64,000 bases of DNA from Chloranthus sessilifolius (taxonomy: Eukaryota > Streptophyta > Magnoliopsida > Chloranthales > Chloranthaceae), in NCBI GenBank assembly GCA_021018995.1, contig CM037593.1:35539810-35603809 (forward strand). Direction: 5' to 3'. Position 1 is the first letter of the stretch. Each line of letters begins with the position of its first letter. The position numbers and the translations under genes are program-made. Under the pieces are notes generated by a model. The model saw only the letters and a program-made list of their open reading frames with translations. It had not been told where the DNA came from and did not search any database. Shown here in pieces: positions 35,345 through 59,630 of the stretch.

Positions 35345-35362
35345 AAATGGGGGGGAAAGGGA

Positions 35363-39100: not shown

Positions 39101-39320
39101 GTTCCTTCTCAAAAAATGGTACATCAAAGGCTGTCTCAGGCTCCAACGGAATTGACACCATGAGCTCAGAAGGAGCAGAGAACTTGGAGGTTGGTTCCGC
39201 CGCCTCCTCAACCACTTTCTTTCCTTTTTTGGGTGACTTTGAAGTCTTGGCCTTTTTAGGGGTGGTCTCAGCAAGTTCCTTGTCCTTCCCCTTTCTCTTC
39301 TATGCAATTTTTGGAGCCAT
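36169..39320 (-). pseudogene. Athila-type ORF3 of element D
   Basis: Starts at the ATG complementary to 39318-39320 (MAPKIA, stop, KRKGKDKELAETTPKKAK), a Lys-rich, nuclear-signal-like N-terminus. A second stop precedes the globular part 39074-38628 (MSKAGLMPLMRGIPALAYP, then LLVLIDDFDMLVSPKVIAEVLG), followed by 38612-38061 (KDIVEKIGTNKKPHTLPYD). Next come a Pro/Thr-rich region (to 37400), a helical or coiled-coil part (37150-36720) and a Lys/Pro-rich tail ending FYTDSGSD and stop at 36169. Length is about 1,050 codons including stops. There is no signal peptide or membrane helix. The domain resembles the 'putative plant transposon protein' family by pattern. Role unknown; a nucleic-acid-binding or host-interaction protein fits better than an envelope. 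Confidence 0.65.
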
Positions 39321-39329
39321 TTCTAATTC

Positions 39330-40110
39330 TGTCTTCTAGTATGAGAAATGGAGACTGAGATCTAGGGTTAGGTTTGATTTGACGCACAGGGCACCTCGAG
39401 ATCTCTGAGCAGAGGGCAATAGATGGGGGTGATGCTAGGAACAACTTTGTAGATTTGTGGAGTGAATGGTGAGCTGTAGGATTGATGCTGGAGGAGAGAG
39501 GGGGAGAGCGTCAGAAGCTAGGGTTTCGCAGAGGGAAGAAGGAAGAAAATAATGGAAAAGGAACCAAGCGCGGGGTTTAAATACTTATCGTGAAGCTCGG
39601 CGCGCTTTGGAACATCTGGTGGCGGGGTTGGAAATGAACCTAGCGAAGGTGTTGATTCAATCTGGATTGTGCAACAATCTCCCAGGTTGACATTGGAGCG
39701 CGCGACAGTGTGAGATTAATTCATGTGAATTGCGCAAGCGGCTCCTCGGTCTCTATTTGGATTGTGCGAAAAACTCTGAGGTTCATTTTCAATCTCGCGA
39801 TAGACTTAGAATCTCGCGACAGCAAATGAAGTATTTTTGTTGAATTACGTGAGAGTCTCCCAGTTTACCTTATGAATCTCGCGATAGTCTTGAAATCTCG
39901 CAATAATTAATGAATAGCTCGATGTGGATCGTGTGAGAGGTTGTCAGGTACACATGAATCTCATGATAGCTATTGAATGTTTCCATGTGAACTGCGCAAA
40001 ATTCTCCCAGACTCCCTCTTTAACCTCATGACTTTAGAATCTCAAGCTATGAAGTATGATTGTTATGCATAGTCTTGTGAGAGTCTCTCGGGGCTTCTAT
40101 TGGACCCAAT
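39330..40110 (-). promoter_or_regulatory. Candidate internal promoter upstream of ORF3 (element D)
   Basis: A TATA-like box (TATTTAAA, complement of 39576-39583) lies about 255 bp before the ORF3 ATG. Upstream of it on the minus strand (39590-40100) is a block with repeated ATCTCGCGA-type palindromes (for example 39793-39800, 39812-39819, 39886-39893). The same order is seen in A at 10080-10693, while coding sequence ends at 40454. The two blocks are not alignable base by base but share motif and position. Confidence 0.5.
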
Positions 40111-40453
40111 GACAATGAGTATAAAACAAAGAGCATGTGCTCTACATTACGCCCTTGCATGTTTGCTGTGGTTGGATCCTAGGCATGACCCTCACCATGG
40201 CTACCTCTAGACACATGAAAACTCAATCATACAATCAAGGACAACAAAAATCGACCTCTCACATTAGGCATTCAACAGAACTATCAATTGAAGAGCAGTA
40301 AGAATCAAACCAAGCATCAAAAGTTTAAAACAGATAGGTCCAGATTCAGATGGGACCACTAACAAATTCTAGAGAATATAAACAAAAGAAAGCAAGATAA
40401 ATCAACCAAAAAATAACTAAGTACATATGATATAGTAATGACACGCCTGTGGA
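40111..40453 (-). other. AT-rich spacer after integrase, element D
   Basis: No gene. It matches the A-rich character and position of 10740-10990 in A. Confidence 0.5.
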
Positions 40454-41557
40454 TCAGTTTGAAGAAGGATCCCCTTGAAAGTGAATGGTGTCCATGAGTT
40501 CGGCAGGTTTTTCAAAATAAAGCTTAAGCCTCTGACCATTCACCTTCAAGGTTCTCCCAGACTTGGGATGCTTGATTTCCACAGCACCAGATGGGGAAAC
40601 ATGCATGACGATGTAGGGACCTTCCCATCTGGATTTCAATTTGCCAGGAAAAAATTTAAGTTTGGAGTTAAACAGCCAAACCTTATCACCAGCTCTGAAA
40701 CTCTTTCTCAACAGCCCTTTGTCAACGAAAGCTTTAAACCTTTCCTTGTAGATCCTGGCATTAGCATATACATCCATCCTTAGCTCTTCCAATTCGGACA
40801 GCTGTAGCAACCTGTGATGACGAGCAGAAGTTAGGTCTAAATTTAAATGTTTAATGGCCCAATAGGCCCTGTGTTCTAACTCCACTGGGAGATGAGAGGC
40901 CTTGCCATAGACCAGTCTGAAAGGGGACATACCGATGGGAGTCTTATAGGCAGTCCTATAAGCCCACAGTGCATCATTAAGCTTGTCAGCCCAATCTTTC
41001 CTATCAATCCTCACAGTCTTCTCAAGGATATGCTTGATCTCCCTATTTGAAATTTCAACTTGCCCACTGGTTTGTGGGTGGTAGGGAGTAGCAATCCCAT
41101 GGGTGACAGAATATTTCTTGAGCAAGCTCTCGAAATTTCTGTTGCAGAAATGGCTCCCCCCATCACTGATAATGGCTCTAGGGGTGCCAAATCTGGACAA
41201 GATATTCTGCTTTATAAATTTGAGGACAACCTGATTATCATTACTTCTTATGCCAATGGCTTCTACCCATTTGGAAACATAGTCCACTGCCACTAAGATG
41301 AAATGAAAACCATTTGAAGGAAGAAAGGGGCCCATAAAGTCAATACCCCATATATCAGGCAGTTTAACAACAAGGATGGGCTGTAAAGGCATTGAATTTT
41401 GTTTGGACAACCCTCCTAATTTCTGACATCTTGCACAGGTCTTGCAGTGTGTATTGGCATCTTTGAAAAGAGAAGGCCAATAGAACCCACACTGTAATAT
41501 TTTGTCAGCTATTTTTCTCCCACTAAAATGACCCCCATAGGCATTTTCATGGCACAT
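40454..41557 (-). CDS. Integrase of element D, open segment of pol
   Basis: 367 codons without a stop. The zinc domain has H3, H10, C41 and C44. The catalytic triad is D73 (WGID), D132 (ISDGG) and E168 ([10 protein letters not shown]), with 35 residues between the second Asp and the Glu, so the DDE core is intact. The C-terminus carries the RWEGPY module typical of gypsy integrases (about residue 315) and ends DPSSN and stop at 40454. The given ATG is internal: the natural protein is the C-terminal part of a pol polyprotein and starts further upstream, beyond a TAG near 41608. It inserts the cDNA into the genome. It is the best-preserved enzyme in the window. Confidence 0.88.
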
Positions 41558-43620
41558 GGCCAGAATACTGGGGACATCACTTTCGGGAACACATTTCCGA
41601 ATGATTTAGTCTACACAATACTTATACAGGCAAGGTTCCTCCCAGAAAAAGAATTTGACCTGTGAGAAAAATAGGTCCTTGTCCATTTTTGTCCAATGGG
41701 CAGGAATCTTGCCTATAACTAGATAATTGACAATATGTGCATACCAAGGAACTAAAGATTGAATGGAAAACAGTTGCTCATCCGGGAAGACATCATTTGT
41801 AGGAAGGTCATCAACACCTTTCTCCAACATAATTCTGGACAAGGGTCAGCCACCACATTTTCTACACCCTTCTTATCCTTGATTTCGATGTCAAACTCCT
41901 GTAACAGGAGTATCCATCTAATCAATCTGGGCTTTGCATCCTTCTTGGAAAATAGGTACTTTAATGCTGAGTGGTCAGTGAAGATGACAGTTTTAGACCC
42001 AAGTAGGTAAGGTCTAAATTTGTTCACAGTAAAAACCACTGTCAGAAGCTCTTTCTCAGTGGTTCTGTAGTTCAGCTGAGCTTCAGCAAGTGATTTGCTG
42101 AGATATGCAATGACCACATGCAGTTTATCTTTTCTCTGGCCCAAGACAACATCTATTGCCAAGTCAGATGCATCACACATCAACTCAAAGGGCAGGGTAT
42201 AGTCAGGTGTTTGGAGTACAGGGGCAGAGGTGAGGCAAATTTTCAAAGTTTTAAAAGCTTTAAGACATTCAGCAGAGAAGTCAAAGGGCACATCCTGGCA
42301 GAGCAGGTGGCACATTGGTTTAGCAATTTTGCTGAAGTCTTTGATAAACCTCCTGTAGAATCCAGCATGTCCAAGGAAAGATTTGATTTGCTTGACTGTT
42401 CTTGGAGGGGGCAAATTTGCAATGAGGTCAACTTTGGCCTTGTCTACCTCAATTCCATCTTTAGAGACCACATGGCCCAACACAATTCCTTGTGTTACCA
42501 TGAAGTGACTCTTTTCCCAACTTAAGACCAAATTGGTCTCTTCACATCTTTGTAAGACCTGATGGAGGTGTTGTAGACATTGGTCAAAGGTATTCCCATT
42601 AACTGAAAAATCATCCATAAAAATTTCCAAAAAATTGTCAATCATATCAGAAAATATGGCATACATACACCTCTGAAAGGTGGCTGGGGCATTACATAGT
42701 CCAAATGGCATCCTTCTATAAGTAAAGGTGCCAAAAGGACAAGTAAAAGTAGTTTTCTCTTAATTAAGAGGATGCACAGGGATCTGATTGTACCCTGAGT
42801 ACCCATCAAGAAAATAGTAAAAAGCTTTCCCCGCCAACTTGTCCAAAATTTGATCAATAAAGGGGAGAGGGAAGTGGTCTTTTCTGGTCTTGGAGTTGAG
42901 TTTTTAATAATCGATGCAAACTCTCCAGCCAGTGGTCTCCCTGGCTGGTCTCAACTCTCCAGGCTCGGTTGTGATCACTGTTATGCTAGATTTCTTGGAT
43001 ACCACCTAGTTTGGTGCCACCCATTTAGAGTCAGAGATGGGGTAAATTACCCCAGCATCCAGTAATTTAATGATTTCTTTCAGGACCACTTCCTGCATGT
43101 GAGGATTCAGTTTCCTCTGCATTTCCCTGGAGGGTGTTGAGCCCTCCTCTAGATGAATCCTATGCATACAGATCGATGCATCAATCCCTCCTAAATCAGC
43201 AATGGTCCAGCCAATTGCTTTCTTGTGCTTCCTCAAAACGGTTAGCAATTCCTCCTTTTGCTCACTGGTAAGAGAAGAGGAGATAATTACAGGAAGTTTC
43301 TCGTCTTTCTCGAGGAAAATATATTTCAATGTCTCTGGAACCTTTTTGAGCTCCAGATCAGGGGCTTGTTGGATGGATGGCAGGGTTGGTGTATTTTTGG
43401 TTGGAGGAAGGGGCAACAATGCAGGTTTCCAATTAGAATGTTGCACTAAGCCCACAGAAGACCTCACTAGGGATATGTTTTCTGGCATTAAAGCTAGGCT
43501 TCCTTCCTCCACCATATTCCAAACTTCAATTAAATCAGTGACAATGTTGCCCCACTCCAGCAGAGTGGGCAGTTCTTCTTCAACAATTTCTTCTAGTATA
43601 TCCACTGCAAAGCATTCCTC
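41558..43620 (-). pseudogene. Reverse transcriptase and RNase H of element D
   Basis: 43605-43006 is the N-terminal RT part, ending at a TAG in the VAPN...VVSKK region. Two further TAA codons follow (after CIDY near 42906 and before EKTTF near 42760). 42711-41752 is open, with the FMDD box intact (residues 31-34, EIFMDDFSV), then [13 protein letters not shown] and the RNase H with CDASD, TEKELL and TDHSAL. A one-base frameshift near 41845 moves the last RNase H motif (VADPLSR equivalent) into the frame 41842-41606, which stops at a TAG where related elements have Gln. All visible catalytic residues are kept, so few lesions separate it from an open pol. Confidence 0.85.
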
Positions 43621-43650
43621 ATTGTCCAGCTGAGGGTACTTTGCACTGTT

Positions 43651-44286
43651 TTACACATTAAGCTCAACTTTCATATGCCCGAAAGTGACCTCCATGATCC
43701 CAGACCTGTATTGAATGCATGCATTGGCAGTGGCCAAAAATGGTCTGCCTAGAATAACAGGTATTGGGGATGTACTCTTGTTGCAGCCCATGTCCAAGAC
43801 AAGGAAGTCTGCAGGGTAGACGAACTTGTCTACCCCCACTAGGACATCCTCGACCACTCCCATGGGTTTCCTCTTAGACCTATCAGCCATCAATAAAACA
43901 ATGGGGGTGGGCTTCAGCTCCCCCAGGCCTAGTTGTTGATACACACTGTATGGCAGCAGGTTAACACTGGCTCCAAAGTCCAAAAGGGCCCTTCCAATCA
44001 TATGGTCTCTAATAATACAGGGAATAGTGGGTATCCCTGGGTCTTGTAACTTCTCAGGCATTGTCATGGTTAATACAAAATTAACTGTATCAGTCGCAAA
44101 AACCTTTTTGGACAAATGGCCTCTGGCTTTCCTTTTCTGAGTACAAAGGTTTTTCAGAAACTTTGCATAGGCTGGGACTTGTCGGATTGCATCAGGCAGG
44201 GGTAAATTTATCTTGACCTGCTTAAAGGTCTCAATCATTTCCTCGATCTTTGCCTGCCCCTTATCAAAAGGGGCAGGGCCACTCAA
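43651..44286 (-). CDS. Aspartic protease of element D
   Basis: Open for 211 codons. The active site LLDFGASVNLLP has Asp 103; Phe after Asp in place of the usual Leu/Thr/Ser is close to the Athila form LLDLGASVNLLP. ILGRPF lies at residues 178-183, and the segment ends FGHMKVELNV. The N-terminal 70 residues (LPLPDAIRQVPAYAKFLKN) are the conserved stretch between gag and protease in Athila. It is a processing enzyme of the gag-pol polyprotein. The ATG is internal to the polyprotein. Confidence 0.85.
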   Translation of the reverse strand: MSGPAPFDKGQAKIEEMIETFKQVKINLPLPDAIRQVPAYAKFLKNLCTQKRKARGHLSKKVFATDTVNFVLTMTMPEKLQDPGIPTIPCIIRDHMIGRALLDFGASVNLLPYSVYQQLGLGELKPTPIVLLMADRSKRKPMGVVEDVLVGVDKFVYPADFLVLDMGCNKSTSPIPVILGRPFLATANACIQYRSGIMEVTFGHMKVELNV

Positions 44287-44299
44287 AGCTTGAGGAAAT

Positions 44300-46084
44300 A
44301 GCAGTTGAGGTACTGCTGGTTCCTCAGCTGCAAGCCTATGACTGAACTTTTGTTTTTTCTCTTTTCTATTTTTATCTCCTGCTAAGGCTCAACTACAACC
44401 TCTTTATTTTTCCCTTGTTGAAGGGTAGCAAGCAGTTCTTTACTCTGTGCTCTAACAAAGTCCTTATCACTTTCACTTGACATTTCCTTAGGAATGACCT
44501 CTCCTTGTTCCTTTCCCACCTGGTTGTCTACCAGCTTGCCAGACCTTAGGGCTGTGATGGCAATGGCCCCCTCAAAATTTGAGGAGCCTTCTCCAATCGA
44601 ATACTGGCCCCTAGGGTTGGCTATTGGCTGGCTTGGCAACCTGCCCTCTTCTCTTTTAGCCAAGGCATTAGCTATTTGGCCAAGCTGCTCTTCTATTTCC
44701 TTAATGCTTTGACTGTGAGAAGTCACAGTCTGATTCAAGGGTCCAAGGCTTTGCAATTGGGCCAAAACTTAGTCCTCAAAAGAAGCACTTCAGGGCTGAG
44801 GTGGGGGAACTACCAATTGATTTTATTGCTGGGGCTGTTGTTGCTGCTGAAAATTTGACCTTGGGGCATAACCTTGGTTGAACTGCGCTGTGACCTTTGA
44901 GGTAAGGCCAACATCTGTTGTGGCTGCATATAATTGTCTTGCCTCCACCTAAAATTTGGGTGGTCTCTCCATTGGTAACCAGCATTTTGGTGCTGGCATC
45001 CATATGGTTATTTATTGTAGCCACCAGATTGTTGTTATCCAAAAGATTGGGCAGCAGCAGCCTATTCCATTACGTACTCAGGGTATTACCCCGCAGATGG
45101 GCACTCTTCTACTATGTGTTATGGAGATTGGCATATCAGACATGCCTCCATCACTTGTGCAGCCATTCTGGGCTGCACCACAGTCATAAGTTTATCAAAC
45201 CTTTCAGTAACATTGGCTATCTGCATTCTCAGGTCATCATTTCCCCTAACTTCATACATCTTTCCTTTAGAAGTCTCAGCAACCCCCAACTTAAGAGAAG
45301 GCTCTTGAACAGTTCTAAATGAGGACATCTTCTGGAAAGCATTTTCGCTTATGACCTCGAACAAGTCCCATGCCTCATCAGTTATTTTATACATGTACAT
45401 TCCACCACAAGAGGCATCTACCATGTCTCTGCTCTTCTAATCAATCCCATTGTAGAAGCTCTGGACAAGCTGCTAGTCAAGGATCTTGTGGTGGGGACAT
45501 TATTTGAGCATTTCCTTAAATCTGTCTCAGGCTTGGTTAAAATCTTCAGTTGGGGATTGGGCAAAAGCAAGTATGCCTTTCCTCAACTAGCTGGTTTTGG
45601 TCTCGGAGAAAAATTTAGACAGAAATCTTGTTTGGAGGTCTTTCCAGGAAGTGATGTTGTTTGGAAGAGTAGATAATCAGGTCATGGCCCTGTCCTTTAA
45701 AGAAAAAGGAAAGAGCCTTAACCTAGTGGCTTCTTGTCCCAAACCAGTAATAGAGAATGTCGTACACAGGGCCAAGAACTGGTCAGTGTGCTTGTAAGGG
45801 TCTTCCTTACTAAGCCCATGGAAAGAGGGAAGCATTTGGATGATGGAAGTTTTGATCTCATAATTACCCTGAACATCTGGGAATTGAATGCTGAATGGAG
45901 AATTGTAATTATCCGGAGCATTCAGTTCCTTCAATATTCTAGGTTGTTCTTCACCCATAACTGTTGTCTCAATTTCAATAGGGGGCTCGACTGTGGTGTG
46001 TCTGTGCCTTCTCGGTCCTCTACCCCTTTCTATCTCAGGGTTAGCAGGCTCTAATGTAGGACTGAGGGATCTCCTTCCTAACAT
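44300..46084 (-). pseudogene. gag: gag of element D (Athila), several stops
   Basis: Start chosen at MLGRRSLSPTLEP (46084), equal to the start in A. The core (LPSFHGLSKEDPYKHTDQF, then LFPFSLKDRAMT) ends at a TAG near 45677 where A has Trp. The rest is readable through further stops: 45424-45119 (VDASCGGMYMYKITDEAWDL) with a zinc knuckle CLICQSP-stop-HIVEEC, and 44765-44382 (IKEIEEQLGQIANALAKREE), the helical tail. At least seven stops, mostly at Trp/Gln codons, which fits cytosine deamination. Gag is thus more damaged than integrase. Confidence 0.82.
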
Positions 46085-46385
46085 GCACACACACCAACAG
46101 CAGGGAAGACTATTCGTAGGCACATTGCACTTAACAAAAAAAATTGCAACTATCCTGATCAACTGCTATAGAATCTTCAAAGGAGAGATAAACTGAGGTT
46201 TTGAAGGTTAGAGAAGTGCAAACAGAGGTAGCTAGACTGCCAGTGCATTTCTACTCTCCTTATCTGCTACGGTCCAGATCTGCAAGAAAAATTCAAACTG
46301 TAAATCAACAGTATCAATTATTCACAAGTACAGCTACCAAAGAATTAAGAATACCAAAATCTAGAGTCTACTATTAGATCAATCT
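46085..46385 (-). other. 5' leader of element D
   Basis: About 300 bp of non-coding sequence between PBS and gag, collinear with 12577-12892 of A. Confidence 0.55.
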
Positions 46386-46403
46386 TCCCCGACAGCGGCA
46401 CCA
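46386..46403 (-). other. Primer binding site of element D
   Basis: The minus strand reads TGGTGCCGCTGTCGGGGA, six bases inside the LTR end. It matches 15 of 18 positions of the plant tRNA-Asp primer site used by Athila. Confidence 0.82.
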
Positions 46404-46409
46404 AAAATT

Positions 46410-48859
46410 TGTTATATATATTTTTGTGCTTGCTACTGACTTTATTGGAGACAGTGATAAGAATGGTGTGAATGAAAATTAATGAAAGGTGGATTAAAAA
46501 TTACGGAGCAGCAAGTCTAAAATATGCATAGTCCTGCAAGATACAGGGCCTGTTGTAGCAAGTTTTGATAAGTAAAAGTTTATCCCACAGGGAAGTTGAC
46601 CTAAAGCTCCAAGGGAGCTATCTATAGTAGGCTCTCCAAATCTGACTACTGATCTGGCAATCCTAAATGGAAGGGGGTTAAAGGTCACTATAATCTAAAT
46701 CCTAAGGTAACTTAATATCTAAATTATAGAAAGGGTTAAGAGGAATGGTGGAGTGAGAAAATAAGTATAAAAGGGTGAGAAGTATGTTATTAGGTATAGA
46801 TCTGATGGGTCTTGTAACTCAGACTCAGATATTATGCTATAGAAATCCTGCCCAATGGCTACATTATCACCAAAGAGGAGAAAGAATCCAACTCACCCCT
46901 ATGCCATGATCCAATCCCTTAAGGCTATAACATGTCCACTTAAATGGTCACAGACTATGCAATAGGGGAACCACAATCCAGAGATGGGTCAGAACAAGTT
47001 TATCATTGTAGGCACTACTTCATCCAGGCTACAGGCTCAAGAATCCATAGTAACCTCATCCTCTAAAGTTCTGTGTGTGGGGCTAGGCCTAGAAAGTGCA
47101 CGAGCCTGGACACACAGGACCAGGAAGAGTTTGAGTACTAGCCTTTAGCATGGCTGTTCACTGCTTTAGAAAGACTGCAGTGATCCAGTCACAAGCCTAC
47201 AATCTCTACAGTGAAATCAGATCTGCAATTTGATGGTGGGTCTGTACAAATATAGGGGAGTCTGTCACTGCACAATCTCTTACAAGGCTACAAGCACAAG
47301 TGCAGAGAAGAAAAATATGTCTTAGTTCTGTGGATTGGCCTTACCCTAAGGCTATAATCTGTCCACTTGAATGGTCACAGACTATCCACAGAGGCCATCC
47401 TCCTCACAAAGGTCTAAGACGGAACAAGAACATTGCTGCCGCCACCATGTTCACAAGGCTACTAGCGCAAGCTCCCATGGGAATTCAGATTTAGTGGATG
47501 CATGGTGGGGAAGGCACAATGTGCCTAACACAACAATCTAAATAAAATCTTAAAAATAATCCTCCATTGCTTACAAAATAACTTAGCAATGGAGGATCTC
47601 ATGGCAGCAGCTTTGTACAGCACAACTCACAACCAAAACAACATCACATACATGTAACAGATCCTATTACAAAAACTCTATTAAAATCTATACTAAATAA
47701 TCATACAAAAGGCATAGCCAGCAAGTGCTAGACTATGGAGAGAAAAAGGAAAAAGAGACTACCTAGAACCTAACCTTAGCCTACTGAAATTTTCAGCTTA
47801 ATCGAGAAGACGAAGTTTGAAAAAGTCTAAGTCTGAAGTTCGTCCAAAAAAAGGTCCTTAAACCTATGCTAGGCTTAGGCTTATATAGCAGTCGACTGTG
47901 TGTGAATTAGGGTTAGGAAAACCCTAATTTCATCTTTTCAATTATGGCCCATTCTTGTCCCTTGGATGCCTCAGGGCATGTGCACGGAGATTAGAGCATT
48001 GGAGTGCGTGCCCTAGTTACTGAAAGTTCCCAGATTACCCATACAGAAGTGGGGAGAAGTTACGAATCTGTTCCTCACTGAGTAGAGAAGATTTGCAGAT
48101 CTTTCTGTGTGGTAGAATTGGCGTCGCGGGGTTGAATTGACTTGTAGCTCATGCAGTCGCGGGATTGACATTTTGGTCATCACGGGATACTAATGGCTGT
48201 TGCGAGATGGTTCTTTCAGCTTTGAATGGCACGGGAATTGCTCGCGCGGTTATTCCCTTGGTGAATCTCGTGACAAATCCTCACGAAGAAGCAGTGTCCA
48301 TGAGCCTATGGATCGCGCGAGCATTTCCTTGGAGGTTTGTATCCCACTGCCACTGCGCGACTACTGCGCGTGGGAGTGCCTGGAGCTCTCTCACTTCAGT
48401 GAATCGCGTGATGATTGAAGACTAGTTTCTTGAGCTGCGCGAGTGCTTAAGACTGAGCCTCACGAGGACCTCACGAAGTCTGCTTTTCAATTCTTTCTAG
48501 CACCAAACCGCGTGAAAACGGTGCAAAGACTGCGCAACTAGTTTTTGTGCTGTCTTACAACTGCGCGAAGGCATTTTCTCTGGTTCAATTGAACCCTGCG
48601 ACATCTGTGCGAGGCATTATCTCTTGGTTTGTTTCTGCTTTGATGTGCCTGTGTAGCAGCCAACTCTCTATCCGGGTTCATCCTTCATTCTGCTAAGGTA
48701 GTTCTGGGGCAACAGTGAGCTTCTTGGCATGGTTAGGGGGTTATTTGCAGCTGCTACTTATTACCTACAGAATAGACTCAAAACACATTTATTAAATGAT
48801 TAAGGGTCTAACAGAGATTTAGTTAAGGGGTTTAAAGTGATACTTTTTAGGTCTTAACA
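46410..48859 (-). repeat. 5' LTR of element D
   Basis: 2,450 bp, same ends as the 3' copy (TGTTATATA to CTTAACA in plus orientation). TATA box TATATAAG complementary to 47880-47887, with TTAGGGTTAGG (47908-47918) and AAACCCTAA (47919-47927) just upstream of it on the minus strand. CGCG-rich U3 block at about 48120-48620. It lacks the 62-bp duplication of the 3' LTR. Confidence 0.92.
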
Positions 48860-48864
48860 CATAC
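48860..48864. repeat. Target-site duplication of element D (right)
   Basis: catac, against aatac at 31010-31014. It is followed directly by CCAAGGAC, which continues the integrase of C (PKDIIT). Confidence 0.65.
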
Positions 48865-49556
48865 CCAAGGACATCATCACCAATAATGGCACAAACTTCG
48901 TGAACAAGCGCATCAAGGCCTTCTGTGAGCAGTATAAAATTAGGCACTACCGCTTATCGCCTTATCGACCACAAACCAATGGGGCTGTAGAAGCTGCTAA
49001 CGAAACTGTCATCCGTATCCTCGAGAAAATGGTCATCACCTATCGAGATTGGAGCAATATATTGTCATTTACATTATGGGCCTACAGAACATCGATCCAT
49101 ACCGCTATAGGGGCAACACCATTCTCCCTTGTGTATGGAACTGAGGCCGTCTTATCGGTAGAAGTGGAGGTGCCCTCACTTCGCATCCTCATGGAATCAC
49201 ACCTATCTAAAGCAGAAAGAGAGAGATCTCGCTTTGAGCAGCTAAACCTGCTGGATGAGGAAAGGCTACTAGCCTTGTGTCTTACCCAAGTCTATCAAAG
49301 GTGAATCGCACGCGCTTACAACAAGCGTGTTCGCGGTCGAGATCTGAAGGCAGGAGACACGGTACTCAAGAGGATCTTCCCATCCCTCTACGTCAATCCG
49401 AGAGGAAAATTCAAGCCTAACTGGGAAGGACCTTATGCCATTCGAGAAGTGCTCCTGAGATATGCCATCTACTTGGGCACCATGACGGAGATCACTTTCC
49501 TGAGCCAATCAATGCTGGGTACGTCCAACGGTTCTACTCATAGTCTCCGCGGCAAG
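48865..49556 (+). pseudogene. Integrase of element C, C-terminal half
   Basis: Continues the core from 31014: PKDIITNNGTNF, where the second catalytic Asp is Asn (E has ITDN), then YRPQTNGAVEAANE with the catalytic Glu kept. 48900-49304 is open; a TGA follows, then the C-terminal region (YNKRVRGRDLKAGDTVLKR, NWEGPYAIREVL) to about 49556. With WGLN in the other half, two of three catalytic acids are lost, so this integrase is dead even apart from the split. Confidence 0.8.
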
Positions 49557-50152
49557 GTAAGTACTGATAAAATGGATATGTGACTGCTCAAGGACCCCAC
49601 CAAAGAGGCCATCATTTCAAAGCCTAGTAACCAAAAAAAATATCCTTAAATGCTCATACCCTTTGCTACACCTGTTGAGCTGTTGGCCTTTCTTTCAATA
49701 AGCTCCTCCCAGGAAAAGAAAATGTGTGTACATACACCAACAAAAAAAAAAAAAAAAAGAGTTACCATTAAAAACAAAAAAATCGGAAAAGCAAAACCTC
49801 AAAAAGAGATTATCTAAAAAAGCAAAAAATATATATAGAAAAAAGGTGAGGCATATACAGTCATGGTCCCCTAAGGAAGAAGCGTATTATGGCAACTGGA
49901 ACCCAGTCAAGGATATCCTTTTAACCAAGAATACCATCAAAATCCTTACCTTACCCATGGCCACAATGCATCCCAAAGAAAAGCTCTCTTTAAGGTTTGC
50001 GAACAGTTAAAGTATCCGTCGAGTTAGCGCAAGCCAGGCTGGGAGATGATGAGAACCCCATCCGAGCGGCTATGACGGAATCGACATCCATGTCATGGCT
50101 TTTGAAAAATAAAAAGAAAAAAAATATAATAATATAATAAATAAAAGTAAGA
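49557..50152 (+). other. Non-coding 3' region of element C, first part
   Basis: No gene. It has poly-A (49741-49758) and A-rich runs. 49855-50090 is collinear with the inverted 56680-56920 of E (for example 'gatgagaaccccatccgagcggctatgac'). Confidence 0.6.
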
Positions 50153-50156
50153 TGGA

Positions 50157-50287
50157 CATAGTGAAAACCCGAAAGGGAGCTACAGGTAAAAATAACAAGT
50201 TTGTGTGGACCAAGTGAAAACTCGAAAGGGCGCAGGGGGTAAAAATGCAAACCCATGGACGTAGTGAAAACCCGAGAGGGCGCTACA
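50157..50287 (+). other. Triplet of GNRA hairpins, element C
   Basis: Three 28-nt units at 50157-50184, 50210-50237 and 50260-50287. Each has a 5-nt arm, TGAAAA, a CCC or CTC arm, a GAAA or GAGA tetraloop, GGG, two bases, and a 5-nt arm. Lower arms are CATAG/CTACA, CCAAG/CAGGG and CGTAG/CTACA. E has three units of the same size and spacing at 56474-56605, with different but better-paired arms. It is probably an RNA structure in the sense transcript. Confidence 0.7.
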
Positions 50288-50917
50288 GGTAAAAAGAGGG
50301 CAACAACGGGCATGACAAACCCACTTTGGGTGTCGTGAGTAAGAAAGTTTAAAAGAAAATGAAAGAAGAAAAGAGAAAAAGAAAAAATCCTTCGGTCACC
50401 TACCCATGTTATCTTTTCTCCCGACCGGGCTGCTCATGTTAGCTCCAATCGGGTCCCGACCAAGTGTGTCTTCTAGATTGCATCGTCAAACGTATGACCC
50501 AGGGTAAGGAGAAAGGTTGATTCCATCCGAAGGGATAGGTGTTCCAGCCTGACAAAACTGCTGAGCCTTATCCAGATCCAACCCTGTGAAGGGGCTCGAC
50601 TATGCTCAAATTTGGACCCGCTTTATGTTTAAGGCACAAAAAAAAACCATCAATTAAATAAAGGAGAAATAATGCTCTTTTTTAAGATAATAGATTTTCC
50701 TTTTCTATTTACAAACTCGTATCTCACTTACACCACATCTCAGAAAAATAATCTATGTGATGTCTAGCCCCTTTCTTCCTTTTCTTTTTATAAAAAATAG
50801 AAAAACAACAAAAATATAAAGAAAATATGTATACCAAAAAATGTGTATCTGCATAGGGGTTTCTTATGCCCCTTTCTCTAAGTTTGATCTGTGCAAAAAG
50901 ATATGTGCAGGAAGGAA
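50288..50917 (+). other. Non-coding 3' region of element C, second part
   Basis: No gene. A further hairpin (CATGAC, AA, ACCCA, loop, TGGGT, GTCGTG) lies at 50311-50337. 50390-50620 is collinear with 56130-56360 of E in inverted orientation ('ggtcccgacca', 'catgctca'). The remainder is A/T-rich. Confidence 0.55.
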
Positions 50918-52521
50918 TCAACGGCCCAGGTCGCGCTTCAAGGCATGAATCTCCGCACGAAAAACATCCTCTCGGACATTCTGCTCAGTCATCCAGCGGT
51001 CATGAAGACTCCTATACCACTTCCAGGAAGCATCGGTCCCCCCGAGAGCATCATTCAAGGTTCCTTCCAGATGAAGGACCTCGGTTGTACCAGCTCTCAC
51101 CTCTGCCACCTCTGCTCTAACATTCTTTTTTGTCAAGAGCTCTTGTAGGATCCTCTTCTCGTCTGTTAGTAGCTCAATACAGGCTCGAAGCGCCGACTCC
51201 TTCTTCAGCCAAGGCCCTCCCACATCATCGCTCTCTACCTGATCTAGATGATCAGCAGTAGGCTACTCGGACAATAGCCAGGCCTCATACTCTAAGGAGG
51301 ACAGAACCGAATCTCCCTACTCCAAATCACACATAAGTGTTGACTGACGCATCTTCCAAAGAGTAGCAATTTGATCCATGTCTCCAGAAGACCCCCGAGA
51401 AAAGATCAAATCACATAAAGGGGGTTTTATCCCACAAGGCACCTGCTGAGAGCAACCAAACTGACGCATCACTCAAAATGGGAAGTAGAAGGTACTGCCA
51501 GTCAATCTAAGGAGGGTGATGTCCTCATGGTCTCTAAAGTGAACCACTGGGAAGGTCCAATCTAACAAAGGAAGTCTCCATACTAGCTCTGCATCGGTCA
51601 GCCAAAGCTTCAACTCTGGCATATCTCCCTGTGGAAGCATGTGGCACCTGCCCAAAAACATCGAACCACTTCACCACGAACGATATAGAAGCAAGGTACT
51701 AGTTCCAAAATGGCAAGATGCTCTCCTAGCTAGACCTGGAGCAGAAGCAGACATCCCTTGAGGCACCCCACCTTGCTTAGAGCAAAAGCATCAAGACAAC
51801 GGTAGAGTTCGACCCAGACTAGATGCATCACTGACCGACCCCCCTCTAACTCTGTCAAAATGTCACATAGAGGAAGAGAAAAGCTCTCTCCCCCAGTAAA
51901 GAAAAGGACTTTAGAGATGAGATCGAGAGCAAAGGGCTTCACATTGAAAATGTTCTGAATCGGTAATTTTCGAAGGCTTTTATCACCGAAAAATTCTCTA
52001 AGGACTTTTATCGAACACCTGGTGGGCCCTCCAATGAGACTTTTCTCATATTTGAATTTCTTCAAGCCTAGAGTGACGTGGAAGGCTTTAGCGTAGCCCG
52101 GCTTCGTCATGACTCTTGCAAGGCCTCTATGGAGCTTCAAGCCTGACAGATTGGAGAGCTCTTCAAGTGTGGGAGATAGTTCCCGCTTCCCAAAATGGAT
52201 CACATGGACATTTACATCCCAAAAGGAGGTCGCAGCATGAAGTAGGTCCCACCGTGGAGGAATCTCAAGGAGGGACAAGAGGCATGACAATCTGACCCAA
52301 TCTAAATCAATGAGCTCACTCTCATTCAAACTCCCAAGCCAACTTTTGAGAAAATTGGGCCCTAGGCCAAAAGAAGGGAGTAAATTGGTTCCAGACCCTC
52401 TGTGTAAGGGAGGGTTGAAAAGTGGGTCCATTGACACACAAAGATTTTTTGAAGATGTAAAAATTCGATGTAGGATGATGGACCCACCCTTGGGAAAGCA
52501 AGGAGAGAAAAAAGGCAGCAA
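50918..52521 (-). pseudogene. Antisense ORF with plant-mobile-domain-like sequence
   Basis: Runs against the transcription of C. 52521-51730 is open for 263 codons: residues 60-130 (SELIDLDWVRLSCLLSLLE, PPRWDLLHAATSFWD, LSPTLEELSNLSGL) and 225-263 (VWVELYRCLDAFALSKVG, LKGCLLLLQV) follow the pattern of the plant mobile domain/DUF7745 family: Trp-rich start, 'PTLEEL', then 'LL.LW'. It stops at a TAG where the family has Trp, continues in pieces (51661-51473), and ends in a charged helical part (51223-50918, coiled-coil-like). Extra ORFs in sense or antisense are known in Tat elements. E lacks it at the same place. Function unknown; captured from a host gene family or shared with it. Family assignment is by eye. 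Confidence 0.6.
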
Positions 52522-52602
52522 AAAATGTCAAGCCAAAATAAAAAGAGAAGGAAAAAGGGCCATTCTTGGGCTTAAAAAGGCCCACTGCCCCCAGGAGGCA
52601 CC

Positions 52603-52809: not shown

Positions 52810-54451
52810 TGTGTAACCGTGGGATTTGTGACGATCCTGTCGCGGCGATGCGCTCGCTTGCAAAAATATAGAGTCGCCACCTAGAGCTTTTGGTATCCCA
52901 GGAAACCAAGTTCATTTTTATGAGCACCGAAGTGCTAAAAATATGACTCTTAATCCGGTCCGCACCAAAGGTTCTTGGGTAGGGGCTTCGGTTATCAATT
53001 GGGAAGGTGTTAGGAACCCAATCAACCCGCAAAATGTTGTCTCTACTTAAGGCCAAAATAAGAAATAATAAAGAAGAAAGAAAAAGGCCTCCTCATGCCC
53101 AAATGGGTCTTAGAATCCTATTTGTGCCCCTCTATTCCTACCAAAAATTCGGTGGCATAACAACACAAATGGGAGGATTGAGGAGAAGCCAATAAGGTAG
53201 GAGAAGAGAGGGGAGAGCTAGAGCTCTCGGGCCCTTGTTGCACCGTTGGGGAGCCTTGCATTGCCTTGCTTCAGTGAGCTTTTGAAGGCTTGTATGGTAT
53301 GGAATGGGGTTCTAACTCCTAAGGCTTGAAGCTAAGAGGTAGAGAGGGAAGGCTAAGGGATTACACACACCTAACCTAAAGGCATTTAGTGAAATACTAA
53401 GGTCTAAGAGAGCTTTTTGAAATCTAAAATTTGCATGGGAAGTGTGCACCAAAGGGAGAAAGATCTCACTTTAACCTCTTTCTCTCTTAGGCCAAAATTC
53501 TCAACCTTTAATCCAAGGGGAGGGGGGCCCTATTTATAGGAAAAGGGTGGGTTAGGAGGCTACTTAGAAGCTAACTAGGGTTAGCAATTAGGTAATGGGC
53601 AATCTAAGGTTTTTGGGATTTTCTAGAGTTTGGAGAAGAGAGATTTTTGTTTAATGGTAGATGATAGGGTGGTGACTTGAGTGGTAAAAGGGAGATAACC
53701 TAAGCTAATAGGGTCACTAGGGTCCTAAAGAAACACACCCCAGACTTTGGGATGACCCACAAGTCAAACCCCCAATGTCAATTTTGGCCATTTTTTATAG
53801 GAAAACCAAGCCCAAACTGTTGAAAGTTGAAGACCCGCAGGGGCCCAGCCCGGTTTTGCAATTTCCTGCATAAATCTGTGATTTTCATTTCGCCATAACT
53901 TTTGATGTATAACTCTGATTGAGACGATTTTTAGCTTGTTGGAAAGCTGGGGAAGTCCTCTTTCTAATGATATATAACTCAGCTTTAGAAAAGTTTTATA
54001 TAAATTTTAGAAATGCTCTCTTTAACCACTGCTCAAGTGGTTCGAAACTAGCTCTATGGGTTCAATTTTGCAATTTCCTACATAAATCTGCGATCTTCAT
54101 TTTGCCATAACTTTTGATGTACAACTCCAAATTAGGAAATTATTAGTTTATTGGAAAGATGGGAAGCTCTACTTTCCAATGTTATATGCCTTAGATTGGG
54201 CAACTATCTATAAAAACTTTGGCACTCGTCTTTCTAACTGCTATTCGCGGGGGTTTAAATTGTGCCTGAGAAGGGTTCTAATAGGTCTGGAAAGGTTATG
54301 GCTGATTCCTAAGGGTTCGGGATGATTCTTAGGGTTTTGGGATGATTCTTAGGGTTTTAGAAGGGTTTCATGCATGCCATTAAAAGCTCAAAGGCACACC
54401 TCTCTTGAAATGTGTTTCAATTGGGCCTTGGGCTAAATTTGGGTGTCTACA
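52810..54451 (-). repeat. 3' LTR of element E
   Basis: 1,642 bp. The minus strand begins TGTAGACACCCAAATTTAGC and ends CCCACGGTTACACA. TATA box CCTATAAATAGGG, core complementary to 53531-53538. U3 contains a two-copy tandem of about 212 bp (from 53854 and from 54066, 'ttttgcaatttcct' start) and a short gggttttgggatgattctta tandem at 54316-54366. The R/U5 half aligns with 21236-22049 of C. Confidence 0.85.
53531..53538 (-). promoter_or_regulatory. LTR TATA box, element E
   Basis: TATAAATA on the minus strand within CCTATAAATAGGG; the C counterpart at 21321 is mutated. Confidence 0.65.
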
Positions 54452-54464: not shown

Positions 54465-56473
54465 GGTATCCGATCACTAATGATCGAATGCCAAAGAAAA
54501 GAGATATCTGAAGAGGCCCAAGGCATTACTGACGGGCATGCTGCATTCAGAACGAACTTCAAACATCAGACGGGTAACATGGTGAGAAAACGAAAGCCCT
54601 AGATGCCAGGCTAAACATTCGTTTCTTAAAGTAATCGGTCCCCAACCGCTTAGCGACATTACTGGGCATAACTGAGGTGGAACGAGTTACAAAAGCCCTA
54701 TATGTCAGGCTAAACATTCGCTTCTCGATATGATTTGAAGGTATTTGATATTTAAGATTCATTCTGAATACAATAGCTTCACAAGTAAGAGGGGTGATCG
54801 ACCCACACTTATAGATAGGCTCTAAGCAAAACTACGCAAGGCTCTATAGTTTGCGTCCAATCCTTGGAGGCATTTGACTGCCCCATCTGACTATTCACGG
54901 GTGCCCCTACTAAAAGTAGGGTTTGAGGTCTTTGGGCGAACCCATCGATCTTGAAGTTTATTTAGCATGACTACCCGAGTGGAGCGAATAGAGGTCGCAA
55001 TGCTTTTTGGGAGGACATGCCAATTTCGAAGATGTGCCTCGGATCAACATGACCTAGAGCATCTAGCTTCAACTACCTTGATTAGGTTCAGCCAAACATT
55101 GGGTATCCCCCTAAAGGGACATCCAATCCTGGTCTCTGCCAACAATGATCATAAGCCTTATTCAACTATGTATAATCATGCACCCATCAGGGGCAATAAG
55201 CAACAACAAAGGCGATGGAAGCGCCAACCCAGACCTGCCTGGGTACAATTTACAAGAACAAACGACCATCATACGGATACTCAGATGCATGGCGTACACT
55301 TTACAGGGATACCACTGCTAATATAGGTTTTAAGCTTGCAAAAAATAAAAGAGAAATGAACCCTTTCGGATGCATGGTTGCACATAGTCTGATTGATATG
55401 TGATCTCATTCTCAACAGGTTGGTCTCTACCAACGATTGACCTTTTCCAACGAATTTGAAGCTAAAGACACTAGAGTTCACATGAATCTGAAACAAAGCA
55501 CTCATCGCAAAGATTTAGCAGTGGAGTCGACTCGATCGAAACATTGACTGTTTGATCGGGACTGACACTGTTGCTCCTTCCTTGAAGTAGGATCCAGAAT
55601 CCAAAGTGTGCCTTAGACTTAGGACGTTACTATAGCATAGTGGTGTTGCTAATAAAATATCGACATTTTGTTGCATCAGAACACGCATGTGCGTAGCTCT
55701 ATGGGGAAGCACAGATTTATTCTTCTTTTTCAAAATGATTTTCTCTCTTTTTTTTAATAGACCTGACGTCAGTGGTGAGATGCTTCATCTAATTTGTCCA
55801 TCACTGAGAAGTTGCTTGCTTCAAGGCTTTGGACCGTGTGATATTCCTGCATATTCTTGAGAAAAGGTCAGTCCCTTTTTTGTTTATACATATAAAGAAA
55901 ATGCATCCTAAAAAACAAAAGGAAAAGTAGATTTCTACCTACATTTTTTTCATTTTCAAGATATTTTTTTAGATTTTTATTTTCGGAGATTTTTTGTTAT
56001 TTTTTTTCATTTTGGAGATTGAAATATGATGCTAGAAATATCAGTAGAAATACATGCACATTTTTTGGTATTTGGATTTTTCTTGATTTTTTATTTTTGG
56101 CTTTCTCTTTTTTTTTTTTGATGCCTTGACAGTAAGACGGAGTAACGGGTCCCATTTTGAGCATAGTCAAACTCTTTCATGCAGTCGGACCTAAGTGAGT
56201 TTTCAGATTTTAACAAGGTCAGAACGTTGATCCCTTTGGATTGAGTCAAACCTTTCTTCTTGCCTCAGGTCATACGTTTGACGGTGCGGTTTCACAAAGA
56301 CAATTCTGGTCGGGACCCGATTCGAACTAGCATGAGCGGCCCAGTCGGACAAGAGGGTACAAGCAAAGTAACAAAAGGGTTCCTCAAACATCAATCTTCT
56401 CAATCAGTCTAAACCTTTCTTTTTCAATTTTTTCTCTTTTCTTTTCTTTTTTTATTTATCTCCTTTTTCTACC
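54465..56473 (-). other. 3' non-coding region of element E
   Basis: No credible gene. A two-copy repeat lies 98 bp apart (54593-54630 and 54691-54728, 'aaagccctagatgccagg' type). 56130-56360 matches C at 50390-50620 inverted. 55870-56120 is T-rich. The 119-codon plus-strand frame at 54967 has no recognisable protein features. The place corresponds to where C carries its antisense ORF. Confidence 0.55.
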
Positions 56474-56605
56474 CGTGGCGCCCTTTCGGGTTTTCACCAC
56501 GTCCATGGGTTTAGCTCTCTTATCCCAAGCGCCCTTTCGAGTTTTCACCTGGTCCGCACAAGCTCATTATTTTCACCCATAATGCCCTTTCGAGTTTTCA
56601 CCATG
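56474..56605 (-). other. Triplet of GNRA hairpins, element E
   Basis: Three 28-nt units at 56578-56605, 56525-56552 and 56474-56501 (sense order). Lower arms CATGG/TTATG, CCAGG/CTTGG and CGTGG/CCACG each give five pairs (with G-U wobble). The upper arm is CYC-GAAA-GGG, and TGAAAA opposes a dinucleotide. Spacing is 53 and 51 nt, as in C (53 and 50). Confidence 0.75.
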
Positions 56606-57239
56606 TCCATCTTGCTTTGAACTTATATTTATATTTTATTTTTTTATTCTTTTTATTTCTTTCATCATTATTTTTTCAGCAGCCACGACATAGACGTTGA
56701 TTCGGTCATAGCCGGCTGGATGGGGTTCTAGTGTCATCTCACAACTCGACTTGTGTTGACTTAACAGATATTATGACTGCTTGTTAACCTAAAAGAGGGC
56801 TTTCTTCAGGGTGTAGCTTGGCCATGGGTTAGGTTAAGATTTGAAGGTATGATGGGCTAAAAGGGTTTCCTTGATACGGCTTTAGTTTTCTCAACATACT
56901 TTCTTCCTTGGGGGTTTTTACTGTACATGCCCCGTGATTCTTCTACACATTTTTTGTTCTTTTTGCTCCATTTCAAGCAATCTCTTTTTGAGGTTTTACT
57001 TTTTTTATTTTTTTTAGATTTTGCTAGTAACTTTACTTCCTCTTTTTTGTATATGTACACACATTTTTTTTTAAGGAGGGGTTTTTTTTTTTTTTTTTTT
57101 TTGAAAGAAAGGCCTAGGCTCAATTGGGGTAGCAAGGGATATCATCATTTTTAGGGATGCTTTCTGGCTACTGTGTTTGGAATGATGGCCTCTTTTGGGT
57201 GGTTCTTAAGCAGTCACGTATCCATTTCAACAATACTCA
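56606..57239 (-). other. Spacer between hairpins and integrase, element E
   Basis: No gene. Poly-T at 57081-57104 (poly-A in sense), matching the poly-A run at 49741 in C. Lys-rich frames over it are artefacts. Confidence 0.55.
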
Positions 57240-58400
57240 CCTTGTCATGATAGACTAAGAGTAGAACCGTCAGACGTATCCAGCATTGATGGGCTCAGGA
57301 AGATGATCTCCGTCCATGGTGGCGAGGCGAATGGCGTATCCCGGTAGCACTTCTCGGACGACGTAAGGTCCTTCCCAGTTTGGCTCAAACTTTCCTCTCA
57401 GATCGGCGTGGAGGGATGGGAAGATCTTCTTCAGTATAGTGTCTCCTACCTTTAGATCTCGACCTCTGACAAATTTATTATAAGCGCGTGCAATTCACCC
57501 CTGATAAACTTAAGTATGACACAAGGCTAGGAGTCTTTTCTCATCTAGTAAGTTCAGCTGATCAAAGGGTGATCTTTCTCTCTTTGCTTCGGGTAAGCCT
57601 GATTCCATGAGAATTCGGAGCGAGGGTACTTCAACCTCAACTAGTAGGACGGCCTCGGTTCCATATATAAGGGAGAACGGTGTTGCCCCTGTAGCAGTAC
57701 AGATTGACGTTCTGTAGGCCCACAAAGCAAACGGTAGCATTTTGCTCTAATCTCAATAGGTGACGACCATTTTCTCTAGGATGTGGATTACCGTCTTATT
57801 TGCAGCTTCCACGGCTCCACTAGTTTGAGGCCGATAAGGTGACGAGCAATGGTTCTTGATTTTGTATTGCTCGCAGAAGGCTCGGATGCGCTTATTCACA
57901 AAATTGGTGACATTGTCTGTGATGATATCTTTGGGTATTCCAAATCGACACACAATATTACTCTTGAGGAACTTCTCGACGTGACTGGCCGTGATGTTGG
58001 CATATGATGCTGTTTCTACCGATTTGGTAAAGTATTCAATGGTGACGAGGATGAACCGATGTCCGTTTGATGCTTTTGGATTAATCATTCTGACGACGTC
58101 AAGGCCCCAGGTAGCAAATGGCCAAGGAGTGGTCATGCAGTGTAGATCGATGGCAGGGGCGTGTATCAAACTGGAGTGTTCCTGACACTTATAGCATTTC
58201 TAAACATATTTGCAGCAATCTGATTCCATAGTGGTCCAAAAGTATCCCTGCCGTAGAATTTTCTTAGCGAGCATGTGACCGCTAACGTGGGCTCTGCATA
58301 CTCCCTCGTGGATCTCCTTCATAATATTGGTCGCTTCACTTTCAGTAAGGCACCTGAGCAAGATGTTATCGTAGGATCACTTGTAAAGGCATTCCCCACA
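57240..58400 (-). pseudogene. Integrase of element E
   Basis: Zinc domain around 58320-58190 (HEGVCRAHVSGHML, then CYKCQEH). Core 58169-57753 open: WGLDVV, IITDNVTNF and YRPQTSGAVEAANK, so the DDE residues are present, although Gly after ITDN is Val. After two stops the sequence continues at 57740-57510 (LPFALWAYRTS) and ends with the NWEGPYVVREVL module near 57390-57330. The total is a full-length Tat integrase with about six stops. Confidence 0.82.
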
Positions 58401-59085
58401 AATGATGTATCCTACCGCTAGACGTTGAATGGTTCATCAGTCCGTCTTGAACGTACCCTCAAGAAAAGTTAGGGTCTCAAGGAAATTCTTAATATCTCAA
58501 AACCACGGTGGCTCATCATCAGGATTTGTAGGTTCCTCAATCTGTAGGCAGAAGGCCGGCTCACTTCTCTGCTCGATCATGATCGGCTTCATCTCATAAC
58601 CATATGAGATTTCTATCATTGATGCCAACGTGGCTAGTGTGTCGGCGAAGCAATTCCTCATTCGGGAGACATATGAGAATGTCACGTCTTGGAAGTAAGC
58701 TATCAGATCCTCGAGGTGTTCATGATAGGGGATCAGTTTCTCATCTTTTGCATTCCAGTCCCCATTCGTCTAGCATATGATTAACTGTGAATCGCTGAAC
58801 ACTCGAAGGTGAGTTACGTTCAGATCGAGAGCCACCTGCAGACCAGCAGCATAAGCCTTGTACTCAACCATGTTGTTAGTGCAAGGAAAGTTGAGCTTGA
58901 TAGAGACTGGTACATGGGATCCCTTTGGTGAGATTAGAATGGCACCAACTCCCTGACCTTCGGCAATGGCCGCCCCGTCAAAGTGCATTACCCATGATTC
59001 TTCTGCTTCTTCTGTATCGTCCTCCGTCATGAACATAATGTCTTCATCCGGGAACTCCGTTCTCAAAGGTTCATAATCTGGCAAA
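58401..59085 (-). pseudogene. Archaeal-type RNase H of element E
   Basis: 59084-58770 is open: SWVMHFDGAAIAEGQGVGA, NNMVEYKAYAAGLQVALDL and VFSDSQLIIC give the Asp, Glu/Lys and Asp positions of RNase HI (the usual YEA is YKA here). After a stop at 58769 the C-terminus continues (58685-58497, FSYVSRMRNCFADTLATLAS). This second RNase H defines the Tat lineage. Confidence 0.75.
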
Positions 59086-59630
59086 GGATTATCAGTAAGA
59101 TGATCGGCGAGTGCCTACCCCTTGATTGACTTCTGAGTGACATATGTGATGTCAAATTCAGACAATAAAAGTTGCCATTGTGCAGTCCACCCAGTGAGAG
59201 CTGGCTTCTCGAACATGTATTTCAACGAATCCATGCAAGCTAGGAGCAGCACGGCTTGGGATAGCAAGTAATGGCGGAGCCTTTGAGTAGCCCATACAAG
59301 AGCCAGGCATGCTTTCTTCAGATGAGAATAGTGTGTTTCATAATCAGTAAATTTCTTGCTCATATAGTAAATGGCCTGCTCTCTTCTTCCTGTCTCGTCA
59401 TGCGGACCTAAGACGCATCCTATCAAAACTTTCGTCGTGGAGAGATACATCAAGAGTGGTCTCCCTGGCTCGGGTGGTTCCAACATAGGTGGGTTAAGGA
59501 AGTAGCTTTTGATTTTATCGAATGTTGCCTGATAATCGTCATTCCATTCAGCGGGCAAGCTCTTCCTTAGTAGCTTGAAGATCGACATGTAGATTGGAGT
59601 TAGTTGTGCAATGAACCGATTGATATACTA
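59086..59630 (-). pseudogene. RT-linked RNase H of element E
   Basis: 59588-59115 open for 157 codons (SIFKLLRKSLPAEWNDDYQA, then GRREQAIYYMSKKF, then TQRLRHYLLSQAVLL). A TAG precedes ALADHLTDNP. Of the usual catalytic motifs, the first (DAS-like) is weak, as is usual for the degenerate first RNase H in Tat elements. Confidence 0.7.

Follow-up and report, generated by a model that had tools for sequence, protein, structure and literature searches.

The window, the whole 64,000-nt stretch of Chloranthus sessilifolius DNA analysed here, carries two related retrotransposons, referred to as C (plus strand) and E (minus strand). Pfam searches identified in E, in minus-strand order, reverse transcriptase (RT), RNase H, an additional RNase H (aRH) and integrase (rve), and in C they identified RT, a second RNase H (PF13456 at 30002-30376) and integrase pieces. 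The integrase region of C was 78% identical to that of E in an ungapped alignment. Passages of PMC6317226 describe two RNase H domains (RH and aRH) as unique to Tat and an aRH between RH and integrase as a trait of Ogre/Retand. The domains of E include both RNases H, with the aRH placed between RH and integrase. Downstream of the integrase, both elements carry an array of hairpin units (U1 to U3) preceded by a hairpin of another design (H0), and C carries in addition a divergent fourth unit (U4). The features were located as follows:

48858..49301, plus strand: C integrase core fragment (rve), upstream of the array (PF00665, E 5.3e-05, under the curated cut-off)
50068..50100, plus strand: C H0, stem 50071-50077 with 50091-50097 and two outer pairs, 13-nt loop, design unlike the units (RNAalifold, 32 copies)
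50157..50184, plus strand: C U1, decayed, CATAGTG-AAAA-CCC-GAAA-GGG-AGCTACA (pattern, fold, covariance model 49.5 bits)
50210..50237, plus strand: C U2, decayed (pattern, fold, covariance model 48.6 bits)
50260..50287, plus strand: C U3, GAGA loop (pattern, fold, covariance model 57.1 bits)
50311..50337, plus strand: C U4, divergent and decayed, CATGAC, AAA bulge, CCC, ACTTT loop, GGG, TGTCGTG, then AGTAAG (weak in the window; recognised through better-kept copies at other loci)
56684..56710, minus strand: E H0, stem 56704-56710 with 56684-56690, 6/7 pairs (sequence; structure from the RNAalifold consensus)
56578..56605, minus strand: E U1 (pattern, fold, covariance model 52.0 bits)
56525..56552, minus strand: E U2, followed by GATAAG (pattern, fold, covariance model 57.8 bits)
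56474..56501, minus strand: E U3, fully paired, CGTGGTG/CGCCACG (pattern, fold, covariance model 61.5 bits)
57756..58199, minus strand: E integrase core (rve) (PF00665, E 1.7e-13)
58500..59114, minus strand: E aRH, two pieces split by a stop and each scanned alone (PF13456 RVT_3)
59118..59627, minus strand: E first RNase H (PF17919/PF17917)

Other features of the two elements were also recorded. C is split by a nested LTR element (31015-48868) with LTR-like ends 91.9% identical, a single RNase H in the scanned pieces and unit matches of at most 9.7 bits in the window scan. An ORF of E upstream of RT (60986-61918, minus strand) contains a G-patch domain (PF01585, E 2.6e-06), which to our knowledge is unusual in an LTR retrotransposon. 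In the 3' region of E, a sequence of about 194 nt occurs twice in tandem (53854-54047 and 54066-54259, 73%) and resembles known Tat 3'UTR repeats. C and E also share another conserved non-coding block, at 50420-50510 (plus strand) and 56260-56350 (minus strand), which reads CCGACYGGGC..CGGGTCCCGACC, GTCAAACGTATGACC; RNAalifold gave no clear consensus structure for the block at 50420-50510.

All six 28-nt units, three per element, were recovered where an earlier note on this DNA had placed them and with the core it had described. The pattern TGAAAA-N{0,3}-CYCGARAGGG matched six times in the window compared to 0.00 in 100 shuffles, and a window search with a covariance model of 45 units scored the six at 48.6-61.5 bits, with the next match at 11.4 bits. 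The spacing, given in the note as 50-53 nt, measured 53+50 in C and 53+51 in E. The lower arm, described there as 5 nt, proved to be a stem of 7 bp: the dinucleotide 3' of GGG is paired to the first two bases (TG) of TGAAAA, so that the bulge is AAAA, 4 nt. In the refined unit, the 7-bp lower stem is separated by this 5'-side bulge from a 3-bp CCC/GGG stem closed by a GNRA loop; GTAA usually follows. Folded alone, the decayed U1 and U2 of C showed no advantage over shuffles (z -0.30 and +0.49), and the remaining four units (C U3, E U1-U3) gave z values of -1.48 to -2.04. For the whole E triplet the fold z was -2.84 (sense) and -0.92 (antisense), and for the whole C triplet -0.67. An outer stem joining the linkers around U2 appeared in single folds only and differed between C and E; we found it unconvincing.

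In both C and E the array follows the integrase core on its 3' side. We rejected coding sequence as an explanation: the spacings of 53, 51 and 50 nt keep no frame, and an antisense ORF across the C array (49990-50433) gave no Pfam match and no homologue at E<=0.001 among 55 candidates.

We searched the source genome (2.17 Gb) for the array. A two-unit pattern with free arms gave 5086+4977 matches, of which one three-unit array can yield two, and with the loop left free it gave 2642+2536; the reversed-pattern control gave 0 in both cases. A second sampling ignored the hairpins and used an integrase-motif pattern, which matched at 1203+1243 = 2446 places, 100 of them listed. Twenty of these 100 were chosen for divergent codons and their downstream DNA was searched with the covariance model. 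The array was found at 19/20 of these loci; the exception was L172, and L165 was weak, with one of three units at E 0.087. By hand count, at least 26 of the first 31 integrase places listed were followed on their own strand, at a distance of 1.0-1.7 kb, by a unit match; as the listings require exact patterns, this is a minimum. At one of the five others the nearest listed unit match was about 4 kb away. The spacing was 53+51 or 53+50 in 115/136 triplets. The two-unit pattern had 0 matches in GTDB genomes, and 12 IMG/VR contigs held one core match apiece, which we read as chance.

The consensus structure was computed with RNAalifold in windows across 32 copies (1,581 columns). Strong consensus structure was confined to about 50060 to 50290, that is, the array and H0, with z values of -4.5 to -14 where defined. 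RNAalifold recovered U1-U3 unprompted and added H0, and the few isolated windows elsewhere (near 49949 and at 50489-50538) reached only -0.5 to -1.3 kcal/mol. The window starting at 50191 gave an alternative fold across U2-U3. In 92 copies the fold z was -2.08 in sense versus -0.99 in antisense, sense being lower in 81/92; the mean lower-stem probability was 0.26 for U1, 0.57 for U2 and 0.39 for U3, and in individual decayed copies the hairpins were often not ensemble-dominant.

The earlier note had counted three units per array. Number and spacing were indeed near-constant, but many copies contained the divergent U4, and L076 carried five units. With the unit covariance model, a weaker fourth match lay about 51 nt past U3 in 11/25 loci; in the window itself C U4 scored 9.5 bits (E 3.8, match 50308-50346). 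Searching 93 copies with the bulge and CCC/GGG anchor alone yielded 28 U4 candidates, including a false one within L076 and a few that were off register. U4 preserves the bulge, CCC/GGG and the stem length while its stem letters differ, and its loop is about 5 nt and not GNRA. In L058 it reads CATGGCG-AAAA-CCC-GTCTT-GGG-CGCCATG and is paired throughout, with stem letters unlike those of U1-U3. Across the 28 candidates the third lower pair was T·G in 14, T-A in 6, C-G in 5 and unpaired in 3, and the fifth was G-C in 11, A-T in 6, G·T in 4, A·C in 4 and other in 3. U4 showed no covariation beyond shuffled 3' arms (pairing 0.776 observed vs 0.762 shuffled, sd 0.016); since re-dealt 3' arms pair almost equally, the case for U4 is one of complementarity and architecture, not covariation. 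U4 was missing from E and its near copies, and L053, L073 and L074, with E-like linkers, had a U4 form with a shorter bulge. L076 contains repeated U3-like units among its five, so the array is able to expand. H0 likewise showed no covariation beyond shuffled arms (pairing 0.929 vs 0.932, 88 copies). The domain therefore consists of H0 followed by three or four like-built hairpins about 50-53 nt apart.

We assessed selection on pairing in several sets of copies. Among 44 distinct units, 95.9% of cells were paired compared to 86.7% after shuffling, and both sides had changed in 32 cells compared to 11.2 (0/500 shuffles as high), in a control that ignores relatedness. A branch test on trees built from non-stem columns compared internal branches, along which the lineage was active, with terminal branches, which mostly reflect post-insertion decay; this test and the null models were our own scripts, not R-scape. 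The 136-triplet set was drawn from 146 loci, with L096 and L113 left out and identical arrays removed, and the 92-copy set from 106 loci reduced to 98 distinct arrays and then to 92 by a spacing filter; neither set includes L001 and L009, which are the window itself, or L039-L050, which are viral contigs. In the 136 triplets, pairing was kept in 91/102 internal substitutions compared to 341/526 terminal ones (P = 3e-7), and in the lower stems alone in 60/69 compared to 232/374 (P = 3e-5), values to be read with the facts that the sets overlap, that branches are not fully independent and that the strongest P values include best-hit copies of the C and E families (L002-L038). The 92 copies gave P = 2.6e-5 and 8.5e-5 and a set of 60 copies P = 0.01, while the newest 40 copies alone showed no significant difference (26/33 internal vs 122/176 terminal, P = 0.31). 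A random transition from the observed pairs retained pairing 61% of the time (92 copies). When the arms were slid as decoys in the 136 triplets, a slide of +1 gave P = 5e-4, probably because the slid C and G runs still pair, and the other five slides were not significant; in the newest 40 copies a slide of -1 gave P = 0.009 in the opposite direction.

The fourth lower-stem pair was tallied genome-wide in patterned units that were otherwise intact. The counts were 780+782 = 1562 for G-C, 427+468 = 895 for G·U, 425+369 = 794 for A-T and 25+23 = 48 for A·C, compared to about 411 A·C expected if the sides were independent, an imbalance to which shared ancestry contributes. The A-T/G-C switch at this pair was seen in U1 and in U3, each in a different family background. 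G·U and A·C are equally reachable by mutation of double-stranded DNA, context effects aside, so their 19-fold difference points to pairing in the sense RNA.

These strand data bear on a further explanation, that the array acts at the DNA level or on the antisense strand, for instance by serving the Retand antisense ORF system (TRP28) as a transcript end or binding site. Retand elements typically carry antisense TRP28/Transposase_28 ORFs between pol and the 3' LTR (PMC11963269, PMC6317226), and a 265-aa antisense ORF downstream of the C array (51730-52527, minus strand) fits this position; the antisense reading also reached P = 0.045 in the newest 40 copies (11/23 vs 38/148). Against this, the ORF had no Pfam match, the antisense reading showed no internal/terminal difference on 92 copies or on 136 triplets (17/70 internal vs 144/447 terminal, P = 0.21 in the latter), antisense folds were weaker, and the rarity of sense A·C beside common G·U runs the wrong way, a fixed sense G·T being an A·C mismatch in antisense. 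We regard this explanation as the most improbable of those considered. Together with the near-constant spacing, the hairpin-blind sampling, the RNAalifold consensus and the branch test, these results indicate that the array is a sense-strand RNA structure kept by selection. To this extent they support the reading proposed in the earlier note.

Formal covariation bore out less of what had been proposed. The note had read the paired changes as covariation, and with the structure given, one of 30 pairs was significant under an R-scape-like null (U3 pair 4, E 0.033), followed by the U2 loop-closing pair (E 0.116); when all column pairs were tested, no pair was. Under the phylogenetic null for all pairs, the two best predicted pairs had E 12 and 43 in 136 copies and E 11 and 37 in 92 copies, and in the 92 copies the top-ranked pair overall (E 9) was non-structural. 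Covariation in the larger alignment was therefore marginal, and significant only with the structure given, which we attribute to the limited depth of a single genome.

We also compared column conservation in the 92 copies. Means were 0.993 (A4 bulge), 0.915 (core stem and loop), 0.888 (lower stem), 0.901 (linkers), 0.860 (upstream) and 0.740 (downstream); because the copies were picked by the core pattern, the core columns are inflated, and the arms and linkers are not. Over about 2.9 kb in 27 copies, 25-nt blocks of the array scored 0.84-0.91, compared to 0.73-0.85 for integrase blocks and 0.88 for the best block elsewhere. A passive tandem repeat, in which the units share ancestry and have inherited their pairing without selection, would fit the known tandem repeats of Tat/Ogre 3'UTRs, which are hypervariable and of unknown function (PMC7004042, PMC11963269); PMC11963269 also cites a 2022 paper in Genome on an 82-bp Tat repeat of Coffea. 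The expanded array of L076 and the marginal covariation are also compatible with it. However, the known repeats are hypervariable whereas the array is among the best-conserved stretches and keeps the 53+51/53+50 spacing in most triplets, and internal substitutions keep pairing, so that passive inheritance appears highly improbable. We are confident that, in this one genome, elements of the Tat clade (Ty3/gypsy, non-chromovirus) carry a conserved structured RNA domain past the integrase, in their 3' non-coding region, with the genomic RNA as the sense strand.

Loop variation had been described as staying within the GNRA class. This was true of U1-U3 in the main, but not of the approximately 5-nt loop of U4, nor of 19/100 listed matches to the pattern in which the loop was left free. 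By hand count, 81 of the 100 matches listed were GNRA (GAAA 67, GCAA 11, GTAA 3) and the other 19 were one base off GAAA or GCAA (AAAA 11, GAAG 3 and five singletons), a tally in which two row pairs look like one duplicated segment. The U3 loop was GAGA in 7/92 copies. Conservation extended past each hairpin into a GGTAA flank (e.g. 50185-50193 in C), in which each TAA column was conserved in 89-91/92 copies, a level close to that of the A4 bulge, and the preceding G in 89/92 (U1), 76/92 (U2) and 85/92 (U3). In many copies U2 reads GGGGTAAGAG, which is splice-donor-like. A strong donor-like CAAG|GTAAGT also lies just past the integrase region in C (49553-49562, plus strand) and could start an intron spanning the array; L010 has the same motif about 640 nt upstream of its U1, and the E counterpart is CAAG|GTGAGT.

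The flank raises the alternative of a processing element, in which each hairpin would present a 5'-splice-site-like GGTAA(A/G) to U1 snRNP and so control how the long 3' region is spliced or prematurely polyadenylated. Conservation of the flank TAA at about bulge level, and the strong donor-like motif past integrase in C and L010, are in its favour. But a U1 site needs no conserved hairpin, the +5 G is common in U2 only (69/92), and two flanks of E have decayed (GATAAG, GGTAGA). We consider a processing role improbable, though less so than passive inheritance.

As for function, an A4 bulge on a G-C rich stem, repeated at fixed spacing, may be bound multivalently by an RNA-binding protein that the element or the host supplies, and the several sites would probably act together. 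The bound protein would mark the full-length unspliced RNA after transcription, and the outcome could be its nuclear export or stabilisation, by analogy with the CTE, the IAP RTE and the MusD MTE, which are export elements of mammalian retroelements. We favour export-like elements because the array follows pol and lies outside coding sequence. A multivalent protein site that marks unspliced RNA, with export or stabilisation the likeliest outcome and packaging a close second, is what we infer by this analogy, at somewhat below even confidence.

The earlier note had instead favoured a signal of the genomic RNA for packaging, dimerisation or Gag/nucleocapsid binding. NC/Gag prefers exposed A bulges and purine loops, and a purine loop is reportedly critical for MMTV encapsidation, according to the title of PMC8096270. 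The array is a sense-strand structure of the genomic RNA with several alike hairpins that expose A bulges and purine loops. Its position speaks against such a signal, as the array sits downstream of integrase whereas packaging signals usually lie close to the 5' end. Dimerisation fits poorly with the GNRA loops of U1-U3, since such loops make poor kissing loops. A packaging, dimerisation or Gag-binding signal is thus possible but rather unlikely, and we return to a protein site marking unspliced RNA as the preferred reading.

More broadly, and tentatively, we propose an undescribed modular RNA element, an A4-bulge array ancestral to Tat across flowering plants and read by a dedicated RNA-binding protein of the element or host. 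If this is true, a cis-acting signal for sorting the genomic RNA of a very abundant plant retrotransposon group would be known for the first time; Tat/Ogre elements are widespread and reach high copy numbers in many plant taxa (PMC7004042). The array, conserved over about 300 nt, could serve as a defined bait for its binding protein and, being short and non-coding, as a module for reporter RNAs, and it questions the view of the region from pol to the 3' LTR as mere hypervariable repeats and antisense ORFs.

The view that no element of this kind had been described held for what was searched. Rfam (4227 families) gave 0 matches in the window at gathering score and, at E up to 10, nothing on U1-U3; only far sub-threshold matches occurred in the window, of which rli24 and RMST_4 overlapped C U4 and sR43 overlapped H0. 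In the open-licence literature, four exact sequence strings (one a guessed relative) had 0 hits among 5.39 million papers, and the matches listed included no description of a hairpin array of this kind and no cis-acting RNA structure in the Tat lineage. Passages of PMC3735527 refer to conserved dimerisation and packaging signals of BARE2 but give no detail of them. The main text of PMC11963269, which is dedicated to the region between pol and the 3' LTR, mentions no hairpin, stem-loop or secondary structure.

Among known systems, the array resembles three groups of elements in part. The CTE of simple retroviruses is an export element, and such elements are 3'-located; a position in the 3' non-coding part of the unspliced RNA is a trait of CTE, RTE and MTE that the array shares. 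It also resembles the IAP RTE and MusD MTE, as presented in passages of PMC12786077, in being a structured cis-acting RNA of unspliced retroelement RNA, and according to the same review the export of plant LTR-retrotransposon RNA has never been studied directly. Unlike CTE, RTE and MTE, the array is built of modular A4-bulge hairpins and has no Rfam similarity at gathering score. With the hypervariable Tat/Ogre 3'UTR repeats it shares the lineage and the region between pol and the 3' LTR (PMC7004042, PMC11963269), but whereas the sequence and unit length of those repeats vary by family, the array is short and conserved with near-fixed number and spacing. In unit sequence, length and copy number it was not hypervariable, L076 being the one clear expansion and U4 occurring in some copies only. 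The conserved motifs of Sirevirus (Ty1/copia) described in PMC2829016 are likewise non-coding and found in plant retrotransposons, some with dyad symmetry. Those motifs, however, belong to another superfamily and lie in LTRs, near ENV or at the PPT, and the passages of PMC2829016 that treat them describe no bulged hairpin array downstream of integrase, the arrangement that distinguishes the Tat array.
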